From Isotricha intestinalis (lineage: Eukaryota > Ciliophora > Litostomatea > Vestibuliferida > Isotrichidae): a DNA stretch of 37,005 bases. The stretch is from the NCBI GenBank assembly GCA_023807065.1, contig JAJJLU010000495.1:1-37005 (forward strand), written 5' to 3'. The translations under genes and the position numbers were made by a program. Shown piece after piece: positions 1 through 21,074 of this stretch (its first letter is position 1; every line of letters starts with the position of its first letter). Below the pieces are notes generated by a model, which saw only the letters and a list, made by a program, of their open reading frames with translations, searched no databases and was not told where the DNA came from.

Positions 1-31
1 AATCCCCAATCCCCAATCCCCAATCCCCAAT
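1..31. repeat. Telomere, (CCCCAAT)n
   Basis: Four complete CCCCAAT units preceded by AAT form the extreme left edge, and unique AT-rich sequence begins at 32. The C-rich strand reads inward, as expected for the left end of a linear chromosome. The unit is 7 bases (ATTGGGG on the other strand). It differs from the CCCCAA of Tetrahymena and the CCCCAAAA of hypotrich ciliates. The array is short, as in assembled macronuclear chromosome ends. Confidence 0.93.
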
Positions 32-8116: not shown

Positions 8117-8521
8117 ATGGAGATCCTAAATTCAAAGAATATATCATTTAAATTAGATGAAAATATTAATGATTCAAATAATAAACAGTTGCTTTTAACA
8201 GACAATAAAAAAAGAACAACATATAAATTTATAAATAATTCTAATGATATTATGAGTACAAAAAATTCAATAAGAATGTCAAGACCTTCAATTCAATCTT
8301 TTGGTTTTGATAAAAATAAAAATATTCAAAATATTAATTTAAATCGAATAGATGCTTTTGGAAATAAAATTTCTAAAGGTGATAAAGATTATAAAGTAAG
8401 TTTTATTGATCAAATTTCTTCTGAAAAAATCGCAGAAGTTATTTTGATTAATACTTATCATAAAAAAACAATAAATGAAAATAAAGCATATATATGCTGT
8501 AATTCTTGTTTCATATTTTAA
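8117..8521 (+). CDS. Small basic protein with C-terminal Cys cluster and CaaX-like box
   Basis: 134 residues, not a family I can name. The N-terminal half is polar and probably disordered. The stretch RIDAFGNKISKGDKDYKVSFID followed by a V-x-x-I-N-x-Y segment looks conserved and folded. The C-terminus reads AYICCNSCFIF, giving cysteines 127, 128 and 131 and a final CFIF that fits CaaX. Prenylation at Cys131 with palmitoylation at the CC pair would make it a membrane-tethered peripheral protein, as in Ras-type double lipidation. It diverges from the PTEN-like gene. The function is unknown; the lipid prediction is inference from the terminal residues. Confidence 0.75.
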   Translation: MEILNSKNISFKLDENINDSNNKQLLLTDNKKRTTYKFINNSNDIMSTKNSIRMSRPSIQSFGFDKNKNIQNINLNRIDAFGNKISKGDKDYKVSFIDQISSEKIAEVILINTYHKKTINENKAYICCNSCFIF

Positions 8522-8741
8522 ATTACAAACTATTTTAATTATTTTAGTATGGCTATAATTTTAAAGATATATATATATGAAAGTTACTTTAAAAATTTGA
8601 TGTAAATTAATATGAAACTTTGAAAAAATAATTTAATTTATTTACCTTAAAATTTATCATAATAAATAAAAATAAAAGTTTATATTTTTGTTTTATATTT
8701 AATAATTCATGATAATTAAAAAAATATTATTTAATATTAAA

Positions 8742-11540
8742 TTAATTGTTTGTTGAATAATTAAATTTAAAAACATAAAATGTTTTTTGTTCAACATTAA
8801 TTAAAGAAAATCCATCTAATATATTTAATTTTAATTTATTTTCAATGTCAATTAGACAATATTTTTTTTTCTTGTTTAGAAAAGCTATAAAATTAATTGA
8901 ATTTTTTTTATTAAAAAGGAATAAATATTTTTCTGCTGGAAAAGGTATAGACTCATCTTCATAAAAATCATATGATGAAATTAAAACAATATCCTTAATT
9001 TCTCCAATTATTTTTTCTAAATTTTTTAAATATTTTCCCATAATTTCATTTTTTTTTAAAAATTTATTTTGTTCATTTGATATATTCTTTATAAATAAAT
9101 TATATATTTTTTTATATTCTTCATTTATCTTTTTTTCATTTTGAAATATTGTTTTTTTTTGAAGAAATAATTTATTTTTTAAATCTTTCATAGGTTCATT
9201 TATTATTATTTCAGGAAACATAAAATTTAAGTTTTTATCTAAATTTGAATAATCATTTGTAATAAATTGTTTAATTTCTTTTTCATTTTTATTGTAAAAT
9301 TTTTTTTCTTCTGGATTAAAAAAAATATATTCGATTCCAAATTTTTTACAATGTGAAATTAAACTATAACAAAAAGGACCATCAATTTTATCATTTTTAT
9401 TGTAATACGCAATAACTACATAATGCCATTCTTCTATATCAATTCCTAATAATTGCTTAGAACCTAATAAGATTTTATTATAATAATCTTTTTTAATTAA
9501 ATTTTTTTTTATTTTTAATATTGCTTCTCCATGAGAATCTTTTGAATAGAATTTTATTTGAAATCCTAAAAATATTTTTTTTTTGTCTTTAAATAATGCT
9601 CCTATATCAATACATTCTCCTTTTCCTTTTTCTTGCTCTAATATTAAATTATTATTTTCATAACCTGAAATTAATTCCATTTTTTTCTTTTTATTCTGTA
9701 ATAAAGAAAGATTATCTTTTTTATAATCATCAATTGTTTTTAAATTTAAATTAATTGGAATAATATATTCATCTTTATTACATTTATTGTAATTATTATT
9801 CGTATCCATATCTTCTTCATAATTTATTTCATTTATTAAATTAATATTATTATTATTTGTCTTTTTAAGAAAAAGTTTTTTAATAATTTGGTTTAAATCA
9901 TCATTAATAATATAATCCATATTTATTATTGATTTAAAAGTTAATTTTTCATTGCAATCTACATTTAATTTTAAAATTTGATTTTCTATTGCAAGTTTTG
10001 CATAATATTCAAAATAAGCCCACTTTATTTTTCCGTAGAAAATATCATTTTGTTTGATTTTTTGATTTTCAAAGAAGTTTTCTGAATCTAAAATTGAAAT
10101 AATTTTTCTTAGAATATTTTTTAAATATAAAAACACATATTTTATTTGAAAATATTCTTCATGTAATTCTAAGATAAAATATTTTAATGGAATAAAATCT
10201 AATGTTCCATTGTTGTAATCGATTTTTTCTTCAATTATTGAAGACAAATAAAGTAAATAATTTGCAATATTTGATTTTGTGAAATTATTAGAATAAAATT
10301 CTAAAATTTTTTTTGAAATATGTTCATTAATATTTTTAATTTCTTTATTTAATATTTCTTCACTTTTACTTTCTCTAAATAAATATTTATATTTTGGTAA
10401 AAACCCAAATAATTTAAATAAATCATTATAATTATCATTTGTTTCTTCGATATTATATAAATTTTTAAAGTAAAAATAATAATTTTGATTTTCAACATTA
10501 TATTCTGGATTTCCTTTAAATTTTTTAAGAGTTTTTATTATTTCTGACTGAATATCCTTATGATTAATTGAAGAACTAATAATAATTTTTATTTTTGTAT
10601 TTTGAATATTATTTTTAATTCCTTCAAAAATAGGAATATCAATATTTTCTAATTTAAATTGATCGAAAATTAATATCAAAGGTAAATTATTGATTTTATG
10701 AAAATTAAATATTTCTTCAATAATTTCCCATGCATTTTTATCTTGACATTTTTTTAATAATTCAATAAAATTATTTTTTAAAAATTCTTTATTTTGAAAA
10801 GCCAAATTAATACATTCAGAAATAATAATATTAAATGATTCAATAGGTTCATTCTTTAATTTTTTTAAAACTTTTAAATTTAAATAAATACAATTTAATA
10901 TTGTTTTAGAAAATTTTAACAATGAAGTTGACTTTCCAATTGAAGTTGGTCCAGAAAATTTAAAAAAATGTAATGAATTAATTATTAATAATTTATAAAA
11001 ATATTTATTGAGATTATTTCTTTCTTCACTTTCAATATAATCAAATATTTTATTTTCATCTATTTTATTATTATATTTAAAATATATATAAAAATTTGGA
11101 GTTAATTCTTTTGGAGTAAATTTTTCTTTTAAAGTTATACAATTTTGAATAAAGGATTTATATTTTTTTTCTTCTTCATATATTTTTATTGAGTCATTTT
11201 CAATGTATAAAAAAATATTTTGATAATTTAATCTATAATTTATTTTATTATCTTTAAATTTTATATATGGATTTTTAAGGTCTTTAATTATTTCATCTAT
11301 TTGAATTGAAGAAAAAATTTCATATTCATTTTCTGAATTTTGAATTTGAACAATTAACTTTACTTTTTTATTTGAAAATAAAATCAAATTATCACCTTGT
11401 AAAACAAAAAAATTATTTTGTTTTATAACTAAATATTCACCTAATATACCTATATTTTTTATTAAAACATTTTCATAAATTTCCTCATAAGAAAATATTT
11501 TATTTCCTAATTCAAGTGATAAATTAATGTTAGATTTCAT
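8742..11540 (-). CDS. P-loop NTPase with possible C-terminal PD-(D/E)xK-type nuclease (Crinkler-like)
   Basis: 932 residues in one uninterrupted frame. Residues 1-150 are a beta-rich unassigned header. A Walker A motif GPTSIGKST lies at 197-205. A hydrophobic strand ending in DQ at 293-294 serves as Walker B (LPLILIFDQF), and a following strand IIISSSIN at about 319-325 fits a sensor. A helical region (about 400-560) and a short disordered linker follow. Near 640-745 there is an alternating alpha/beta section with Asp645 in CIDIGAL, then FLGFQIKFYSKDSH (Q661-x-K663), then a hydrophobic strand EEWHYVVIAYYN. D...QxK is a recognised variant of the restriction-endonuclease fold active site. NTPase followed by such a nuclease is the architecture of Crinkler/RHS-type proteins. 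The NTPase is clear; the nuclease and family assignments are inference. Confidence 0.7.
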   Translation of the reverse strand: MKSNINLSLELGNKIFSYEEIYENVLIKNIGILGEYLVIKQNNFFVLQGDNLILFSNKKVKLIVQIQNSENEYEIFSSIQIDEIIKDLKNPYIKFKDNKINYRLNYQNIFLYIENDSIKIYEEEKKYKSFIQNCITLKEKFTPKELTPNFYIYFKYNNKIDENKIFDYIESEERNNLNKYFYKLLIINSLHFFKFSGPTSIGKSTSLLKFSKTILNCIYLNLKVLKKLKNEPIESFNIIISECINLAFQNKEFLKNNFIELLKKCQDKNAWEIIEEIFNFHKINNLPLILIFDQFKLENIDIPIFEGIKNNIQNTKIKIIISSSINHKDIQSEIIKTLKKFKGNPEYNVENQNYYFYFKNLYNIEETNDNYNDLFKLFGFLPKYKYLFRESKSEEILNKEIKNINEHISKKILEFYSNNFTKSNIANYLLYLSSIIEEKIDYNNGTLDFIPLKYFILELHEEYFQIKYVFLYLKNILRKIISILDSENFFENQKIKQNDIFYGKIKWAYFEYYAKLAIENQILKLNVDCNEKLTFKSIINMDYIINDDLNQIIKKLFLKKTNNNNINLINEINYEEDMDTNNNYNKCNKDEYIIPINLNLKTIDDYKKDNLSLLQNKKKKMELISGYENNNLILEQEKGKGECIDIGALFKDKKKIFLGFQIKFYSKDSHGEAILKIKKNLIKKDYYNKILLGSKQLLGIDIEEWHYVVIAYYNKNDKIDGPFCYSLISHCKKFGIEYIFFNPEEKKFYNKNEKEIKQFITNDYSNLDKNLNFMFPEIIINEPMKDLKNKLFLQKKTIFQNEKKINEEYKKIYNLFIKNISNEQNKFLKKNEIMGKYLKNLEKIIGEIKDIVLISSYDFYEDESIPFPAEKYLFLFNKKNSINFIAFLNKKKKYCLIDIENKLKLNILDGFSLINVEQKTFYVFKFNYSTNN

Positions 11541-11943
11541 TTTTTTAATTATTTTATCATTGCCAATTATTTTAAATATTATAAATTTAATTAATATTTT
11601 TTAATTTATCAAATTTAAAGTAAATTTTCCAAAAGAATTCAAGATATTAATTTAATGATTTGTCTATTATGAACAATATATTAAATAGTAAAAGACTAAC
11701 TAAATAGAATAATTTGAATTGGAATATAATTTAAAAAGAATTCAAAATAAATAAGTAGATAATAATATTGTTAAGCAGTTACTAAAGTTTTTAAATATAT
11801 TTTTTAATTATAGTATATTTTTAATTAAAAACTTAATATAATTTAATCATTGAAATATATTTTAAAAATAATAAAAATCTTTTATTTATTTCACCTAAAT
11901 ATATTTTTTAATGAATAAAAATATTTTTCAAAAAATATAAAAA
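11541..11943. promoter_or_regulatory. Divergent intergenic region, 403 bases
   Basis: AT-rich spacer between the starts of the NTPase gene (minus) and the receptor-RING gene (plus). No open frame, RNA fold or repeat was seen. It is the longest clean divergent spacer among the confident genes of the left half. Confidence 0.5.
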
Positions 11944-19577: not shown

Positions 19578-21074
19578 TTATTTAGTTTTTATATAAACAT
19601 AACATGAAAATTTTTCATTTCCAGTTGAATTCATTTGAAAATTTCCAATTTTTACAAAATGAGTTAGACCACTTTTTTTGGTTTGATGTTCATTACTATA
19701 CCAAGCTAAAACTTTCCAATTAGTTTTATTTAATATTTTTGATATTTTTTTTCTACAAGCATCGCCCATTAATTTATTATATGAATATATATGTGTAAAA
19801 TGTTCTGAATTTGGTATTTTATCTATATTATTTTTATCAAATACATTTTCATCAAAAAATTTATATGAATCATATTTTGTTGCATCTTTACACAGAAAAC
19901 TACATAAATTATAAAAATTTGGATTAAAGTTTACACATGAAAATTTATTTAAGATATGATGTAAAAAAGATTCTTTTTCATTTTTTTCACTTTTTTCTTC
20001 TTTTTTTTCTTCTATTATTCTCTTTTTTGTTATTTTTGTTATGTTATTTATAAATAACATTAAATCTAATATATATTTATTTTCTAAATCAGAACAATGA
20101 TTTATTACTTCATATATTGGAATATATGATGTATTATTTTCTAATAAATCAGAATATAAATTATGGATTAGTATTTTACTGAAATTATTTGTTAATTTTT
20201 GATTTGATATTATTGTAATTCTTGTTATGTCTAAAAATTGTTTTCCAAATTTTATATTTAATTCATCTGGACATAAAATAGAAATACATTCATTAAAATC
20301 TTTTTCTTTATTATTAAATAATATATTATAATCAATAATATTATCAATTGAATAAATATAATTTAAATTTTGTAATTTTTTAATTTTTAATATATATTCA
20401 TTAAACCAATCAAACCTAAATTTAATTAATTTATTATTATTAAAAGAAAAATCCAAAACAATTTTTTTATTTAAAATCTTCTTATTTCCAATACAATTAA
20501 AACAAATATTATTATTAAAAAAATTAAAATAATTCTCATTATTACAATTATTACCGTTATGAATATTATCACAATTATTAAACTCATCATCAAATAATTC
20601 TTTTTGTTGATTGTCACAATTTAAATTAAAAAAATCTTTGTCACTTAAAAATTCATAATAAAAATCTTTACAAAACTCAACTCTAGCGGGAACAACTTCA
20701 ATACCTTGGCTTTTACATCCAATTTGAAAAGCACAATGATATATCGGTTTACCAAATCCACTTCCAATGTCTAAAAAATAACTATCTTTATTTATATTAT
20801 AACTATCATATTTTAATTTTTTTTTATTTATTTTCATATCTTCAATTATTTCATCAATATTAGAAAATAAATTATATAATTGAGTCATTGATGATAATGA
20901 TATTTCACCATATCCTATTTGAGTTGTTTTTATATTAAAAAATTTTTCTTCTTCATCGAATTTTTTTGTTCTTTTTCCTGTAATATGATTTCTATGTGAC
21001 CATAAAAGATTTGATGATTTATTTATTTGTTTATATAATTTTCGAAGATAAGTTTTAAATAATGAGTTGTCCAT
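19578..21074 (-). CDS. DOT1-like SAM-dependent methyltransferase
   Basis: 498 residues. Residues 52-66 (QIGYGEISLSSMTQL) match the YGE motif that precedes the SAM pocket of DOT1. Motif I is FLDIGSGFGKP at 101-110, and the acidic residue after the next strand is Glu126 in QGIEVVPAR. Near the C-terminus, THIYSYNKLMGDACRKKISKIL (from 427) fits the later strand-helix of the Rossmann fold. DOT1 enzymes methylate Lys79 of histone H3 and are the non-SET lysine methyltransferases. A long Asn-rich insertion of roughly 200 residues separates the two halves, and the DOT1 NNF substrate motif is replaced by HIYSYN. The methyltransferase fold is firm; histone specificity is uncertain. Confidence 0.8.
   Translation of the reverse strand: MDNSLFKTYLRKLYKQINKSSNLLWSHRNHITGKRTKKFDEEEKFFNIKTTQIGYGEISLSSMTQLYNLFSNIDEIIEDMKINKKKLKYDSYNINKDSYFLDIGSGFGKPIYHCAFQIGCKSQGIEVVPARVEFCKDFYYEFLSDKDFFNLNCDNQQKELFDDEFNNCDNIHNGNNCNNENYFNFFNNNICFNCIGNKKILNKKIVLDFSFNNNKLIKFRFDWFNEYILKIKKLQNLNYIYSIDNIIDYNILFNNKEKDFNECISILCPDELNIKFGKQFLDITRITIISNQKLTNNFSKILIHNLYSDLLENNTSYIPIYEVINHCSDLENKYILDLMLFINNITKITKKRIIEEKKEEKSEKNEKESFLHHILNKFSCVNFNPNFYNLCSFLCKDATKYDSYKFFDENVFDKNNIDKIPNSEHFTHIYSYNKLMGDACRKKISKILNKTNWKVLAWYSNEHQTKKSGLTHFVKIGNFQMNSTGNEKFSCYVYIKTK

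Follow-up and report, generated by a model that had tools for sequence, protein, structure and literature searches.

A predicted NTPase–nuclease fusion gene of Crinkler/RHS-like layout in the ciliate Isotricha intestinalis

The window analysed here is the whole 37,005-nt stretch of contig JAJJLU010000495.1 from the ciliate Isotricha intestinalis (assembly GCA_023807065.1), and the gene under study is an open reading frame (ORF) at 8742..11540 on its minus strand. It runs from ATG to TAA over 932 aa with zero internal stops, and the chance of 932 open codons was about 10^-39 by the window base frequencies (independent bases assumed), which ruled out a chance ORF. P0002 in the protein collection is the same gene, with equal length, 7 differences and 99% identity. 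In the predicted structure, the single chain (P0001) has three main parts in this order: a P-loop nucleoside triphosphatase (NTPase) with a STAND-like fold, a winged/helical region, and a nuclease of PD-(D/E)xK type, for which metal-dependent phosphodiester cleavage is predicted. A preliminary description, made from the letters alone, had proposed such a fusion in one polypeptide, and both the model and the structural matches agreed with it. The parts of the gene are as follows.

8742..11540, minus strand: whole gene, with header, P-loop NTPase, winged/helical region, PD-(D/E)xK nuclease and C-terminal domain (AlphaFold2)
11397..11519, minus strand: first header module, residues 8-48, strand-strand-helix-strand-strand in the AlphaFold2 model, little conserved
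11175..11387, minus strand: second header module, residues 52-122, beta-grasp (ubiquitin/PB1) order strand-strand-helix-strand-strand-helix-strand (AlphaFold2)
10461..11078, minus strand: STAND-like P-loop NTPase core, residues 155-360 (AlphaFold2 and structural match 2qen)
10929..10952, minus strand: Walker A GPTSIGKS, residues 197-204 (sequence and conservation)
10659..10664, minus strand: Walker B D293-Q294 (sequence and conservation)
10083..10460, minus strand: helical region with beta hairpin, winged-helix-like, residues 361-486, mostly covered by the 2qen match
9984..10037, minus strand: first nuclease helix with E511, residues 502-519 (conservation and structure)
9306..9656, minus strand: nuclease core, residues 629-745, with Q636, D645 and Q661-x-K663 (structure searches and conservation)
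9552..9560, minus strand: Q661-I662-K663 on the third core strand (sequence and conservation)
8745..9215, minus strand: C-terminal helices and beta-rich domain, residues 776-932 (AlphaFold2), little conserved

The motifs lay where the preliminary description had placed them: Walker A GPTSIGKST at 197-205, D293-Q294, ISSSIN at 321-326, D645 and Q661-x-K663. Together with the fold, the two Walker motifs identified the central part as a STAND-like P-loop NTPase. Its structural match 2qen (P. abyssi paby2304, an archaeal ATPase), which we take to be a STAND-like ATPase, differs from the ciliate protein in that the identity is 14% and its 350 residues align over their full length, leaving no room for a header or a nuclease. 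Helices and a beta hairpin at 394-485 lie between the NTPase and the nuclease in the AlphaFold2 model and fall largely inside the 2qen alignment. The winged-helix part of STAND NTPases is expected to carry a GxP-like motif, and the candidate here has F378 in 42/47 sequences and P382 in 38/47, while the Gly position varies (G379 in 17/47). The nuclease model contains the alpha-beta-beta-beta-alpha-beta core of the PD-(D/E)xK superfamily, the very feature on which the preliminary description had staked its nuclease call, and a basic stretch is present at residues 607-620. Whole-model Foldseek searching returned the PB1 structure 2bkf (rank 44, E 0.07, prob 1.00, TMt 0.57, 3.1 A) and the ubiquitin-like 1wx8 (rank 25, E 0.04, prob 0.96); Foldseek gives no alignment position, and both were placed on the header by topology. 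These matches suggest a beta-grasp-like N-terminal header in the model, and the header gave no meaningful sequence match.

Conservation was scored in an alignment of 47 sequences (A2), over the rows having a residue, with partial rows gapped. NTPase residues were nearly invariant (G202 46/46, K203 46/46, D293 46/46, Q294 45/46), and so were those of the nuclease (E511 47/47, D645 45/45, Q661 44/45, K663 44/45), as the preliminary description had expected of the Asp and Q-x-K in paralogues. Position 636 was Gln in 44 rows and Glu in 1, and the exceptions were K294 in P0011, E636 in P0042, K661 in P0030 and S663 in P0048. PD-(D/E)xK nucleases carry a helix Glu, an Asp at the start of strand 2 and (D/E/Q)xK on strand 3; the same set is found here as E511, D645 and Q661-x-K663. 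Two candidate active-site residues go beyond the earlier reading: E511, from the helix before the core, and Q636, from its first strand. SKDSH, which that reading had listed after Q-x-K, is present at 666-670 but was ruled out as part of the active site by its poor conservation (S666 8/47, H670 9/47). Most NTPases of the STAND-like class carry an acid where D293-Q294 has Gln.

The class A alignment with the most distant members (40 rows) kept E511 in 39/40, D645 in 39/39, and Q661 and K663 each in 37/39; departures came from P0030, P0079 and P0080, the last two of which differ at several of the near-invariant positions. Class B, with 35 sequences, retained counterparts of the Glu, the Asp, the Gln and Lys of QxK and the Walker lysine in all 35, and of the first-strand Gln in 34. 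In class A, the share of columns with at least 70% identity was 24-27% for the two cores (NTPase and nuclease) and 15% for the winged region, vs 2-4% for the header, the C-terminus and the insert at 540-628. Profile comparison of class A with class B gave prob 100 for the NTPase and 96.5 for the nuclease, compared with 13.8 (E 0.002) for the header and 5.0 (E 0.008) for the C-terminus; unlike parts gave 0.5 or less.

Library searches returned little. Pfam gave only PhoU for P0001 (E 0.67, below cut-off) and scattered weak matches among the 47 members, with AAA_22 in 5, AAA_14 in 2 and the best, AAA_18 at 1.3e-4, in 1. NCBIfam had none for P0001 and eight single weak matches among the 47, PADLOC had no match for P0001 (the sole member scanned), and the PDB-sequence profile search gave weak Walker-type and other matches only (E 0.11 or worse). 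A sequence match to EFHC2 covered residues 98-157 (E 0.013).

The preliminary description had also compared the gene with Crinkler/RHS (CR) proteins, and the layout part of this comparison was supported, membership by sequence not. Model and matches put NTPase and restriction-endonuclease-type (REase) nuclease in one chain as in CR proteins. The parts also follow each other as they do there, with a header that may be beta-grasp-like, then the P-loop NTPase, a winged/helical region and finally the PD-(D/E)xK nuclease. A review describes an NTPase, helix-turn-helix and REase architecture, for which it proposes that the REase is the active part and the NTPase its regulator, and descent of CR proteins from proteins acting on invasive DNA, against which their original role would have been directed (PMC5289972); the candidate for the helix-turn-helix in the ciliate protein is the helices and beta hairpin at 394-485. 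Headers of Crinkler proteins (CRNs) are described in another source as beta-grasp/ubiquitin-like (PMC6131194). The ciliate family differs in its QxK active site, first-strand Gln, extra C-terminal domain and ciliate host. Neither RHSP (PF07999) nor Crinkler was among the 22 Pfam families matched by the 47 members (E 0.15 or less), a genome search for RHSP gave 0 matches with a control that likewise gave 0, and a LFLAK-like motif occurred in the first 150 residues of 0/81 proteins, some of them fragments. The missing LxLFLAK motif (0/81) ruled out an oomycete-type CRN. No CR protein was recognised among the best 50 structural matches listed per search, which excludes nothing, and no paper with a title or abstract on Crinkler/RHS in ciliates or Tetrahymena was found. 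Thus CR membership by sequence is not supported and the resemblance is one of layout; the predicted protein would work like a CR or STAND-nuclease protein.

Other named systems share parts of this design. One source reports that Medea1 of Tribolium is CR-NTPase8 plus CR-REase7 and describes the active-site order E...D...ExK for CR-REase7 and CifB nucleases (PMC11342252). The ciliate nuclease resembles those of Medea1 and Wolbachia CifB in its helix Glu, first-strand residue, Asp and x-x-Lys, and Medea1 is likewise an NTPase-REase fusion, whereas the ciliate family has Gln for the first-strand Glu in 44/45 and lacks the CR-REase7 His three residues after Glu (0/47 at 514, 0/45 at 664; the source wording is ambiguous on which Glu is meant). 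The missing His ruled out a CR-REase7 or Medea1 type. Structural matches of the nuclease included 8dgc Avs3, 9nxx LmuA and XisH. Avs and Lamassu systems couple an NTPase switch to a PD-(D/E)xK nuclease, the same logic as in the ciliate family, but the nuclease of Avs3 is N-terminal by its listed range (2-193 of 2028). Against a viral library, the model matched best two giant-virus proteins, Marseillevirus LCMAC102 A0A481YSG6 and Pithovirus LCPAC104 A0A481Z7E7 (E 2-3 x 10^-4, prob 1.00). Searches of viral contigs and prokaryote genome contigs with one or two short peptide patterns, which make weak negatives, found no relatives.

Three protein searches, each scoring only about 8000 candidates that shared most words, returned 10, 40 and 39 rows and at least 80 distinct unnamed relatives (P0002-P0081). 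The paralogue count called for earlier gave at least five loci in the assembly, on which three protein searches agreed: C295 (the window), C2024, C736, C2105 and C1087. A fourth assembly search, with a distant query, gave C1087 only. These paralogues are 29-36% identical, with no near-identical copies, and lie on five contigs, and each has its own separate position in a tree of 78 rows, which indicates from sequence that the family is old and divergent and not a recent burst in the I. intestinalis genome. The tree was built by a quick method after 8 of the 81 proteins were dropped as duplicates or fragments and the five own-assembly copies were added; the placement of five rows is unsure, their branches being very long. 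The closest partner of C295 in the tree is P0003 (support 99), and its identity to P0003-P0005 is 55-56%, C2105 clusters with P0011, P0014 and P0076 at 60-63% identity, and P0007 is 98.9% identical to C2024 and may come from the same or a sister species.

The C736 paralogue (L003 1-1920 / L008 1-1920) has a telomere inside its coding frame, before the nuclease strands, and the frame runs into the repeat; its end sequence has short partial matches in the assembly and no second full one. Either the chromosome may break within this gene, or the copy may be dead. The last 90 bases of the C2105 3' end look G+C-richer and bacterial-like, unlike the rest, possibly from a chimeric or contaminated assembly. 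Among 41 tabulated homologues (P0002-P0048), 36 are on contigs reaching no more than 600 bases past the ORF (median 299), so these contigs look as if they were gene-sized macronuclear chromosomes; the table drops 6 of 47 relatives, mostly partial, the rest of the 80 lie outside it, and the contigs themselves were unseen.

Taken together, we favour, at a probability of roughly 0.55, the reading that the gene product is a DNase of the Crinkler-RHS / STAND-nuclease kind, intracellular and switched by NTP, which probably acts in a conflict, within the cell or its nucleus, with DNA that is mobile or invades. Target recognition, by sensing or by binding a protein or DNA, would fall to the header and the variable C-terminal domain, and NTP binding would change the shape of the protein or drive its oligomerisation, so releasing the nuclease, which would then cut DNA. 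The DQ Walker B (Gln in 45/46) points to hydrolysis that is perhaps slow, and so to a switch rather than a motor. A hydropathy scan found no hydrophobic segment in P0001 (no signal-peptide predictor was run), which makes an intracellular factor likelier than a secreted effector. Among defence, DNA processing, selfish element and effector, intracellular conflict is the leading guess for its role.

A domesticated nuclease that cuts germline DNA in macronuclear development (elimination, chromosome fragmentation) or acts in repair is an unlikely explanation, though it draws on several observations: catalytic residues are retained almost everywhere, the XisH match is to a factor controlling fdxN-element excision, and the two ortholog groups of C295 and C2105 persist at moderate identity in other sources, to which the P0007-C2024 pair adds little. 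However, the size of the family, its divergence and the variability of its header and C-terminus exceed what is usual for a core developmental enzyme, and Pfam recognised no rearrangement gene among the 19 other window ORFs. The scattered copies would also suit a selfish toxin-like element, kept by killing cells or progeny without it like Medea1, whose reported domain pair (PMC11342252) is of the CR kind, or like other mobile CR elements; the ORF lies between imperfect AT-rich inverted repeats (33 and 41 nt), though the stretch holds 23 such pairs and no chance control was made.

We consider such an element quite improbable, as the CR-REase7 histidine is missing in 47/47 whichever Glu is counted from (helix Glu or Q661), no transposon gene was recognised by Pfam among the same 19 ORFs, and the assembly copies are far from near-identical. 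Least probable of all is secretion as an effector, in the manner of oomycete CRNs, for delivery to other cells in the gut: the general layout, with its putative beta-grasp-like header, is that of many CRNs, but the hydropathy and LFLAK results speak against it and there is no known recipient.

Most of what is known of CR proteins concerns effectors of crop pathogens and the RHS proteins of trypanosomes. The Crinkler/RHS-type layout was already known, and what is new here is an unnamed ciliate NTPase-nuclease family of that layout, whose conservation indicates that ciliates probably possess a diverse array of NTPase-nuclease switches of their own. If this is true, a large, catalytically intact family in commensal ciliates would support NTPase-nuclease fusions as primarily intracellular conflict factors. 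Since ciliates live with, and control, programmed DNA cutting on a massive scale, the family is directly testable as a defence or DNA-processing system. More speculatively, litostome gut ciliates might possess their own diversified single-protein immune switches, built of a beta-grasp header, a STAND-like NTPase and a PD-(D/E)xK nuclease and NLR/Avs-like in action, that degrade invading DNA and often sit on gene-sized chromosomes copied and lost independently, a tentative idea that we rate as possible rather than probable.

The gene is a complete copy on a telomere-bearing litostomatean contig; the contig is presumably macronuclear and from a gut dweller, as the preliminary description had proposed. 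The contig end and its telomere lie 8.7 kb from the gene.

1..31, plus strand: telomere (CCCCAAT)n at the contig end

The assembly (57.3 Mb, 2153 contigs) contains 725 forward and 636 reverse runs of three tandem telomere units (reversed control 0), and among the matches listed, forward units fall in the first 72 bases of contigs and reverse ones at high coordinates. These telomeres assign the window to a litostomatean ciliate. The AT-rich imperfect inverted repeats around the ORF pair 8683-8744 with 11520-11552 (33 nt, 82%) and 11800-11840 (41 nt, 73%); being 2 of the 23 pairs, they may mean nothing. Among the other window ORFs, the nearest to the gene (8117-8521) is one of 9 without a Pfam family, and the 10 with one carry TBC, DHHC, PTEN-like phosphatase, two protein kinases, DOT1-like, ELP1, kelch, WD40 and ion channel families. 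The DOT1-like histone methyltransferase domain (19578-21074, minus strand, E 1.4e-7) adjoins the ELP1 homologue.
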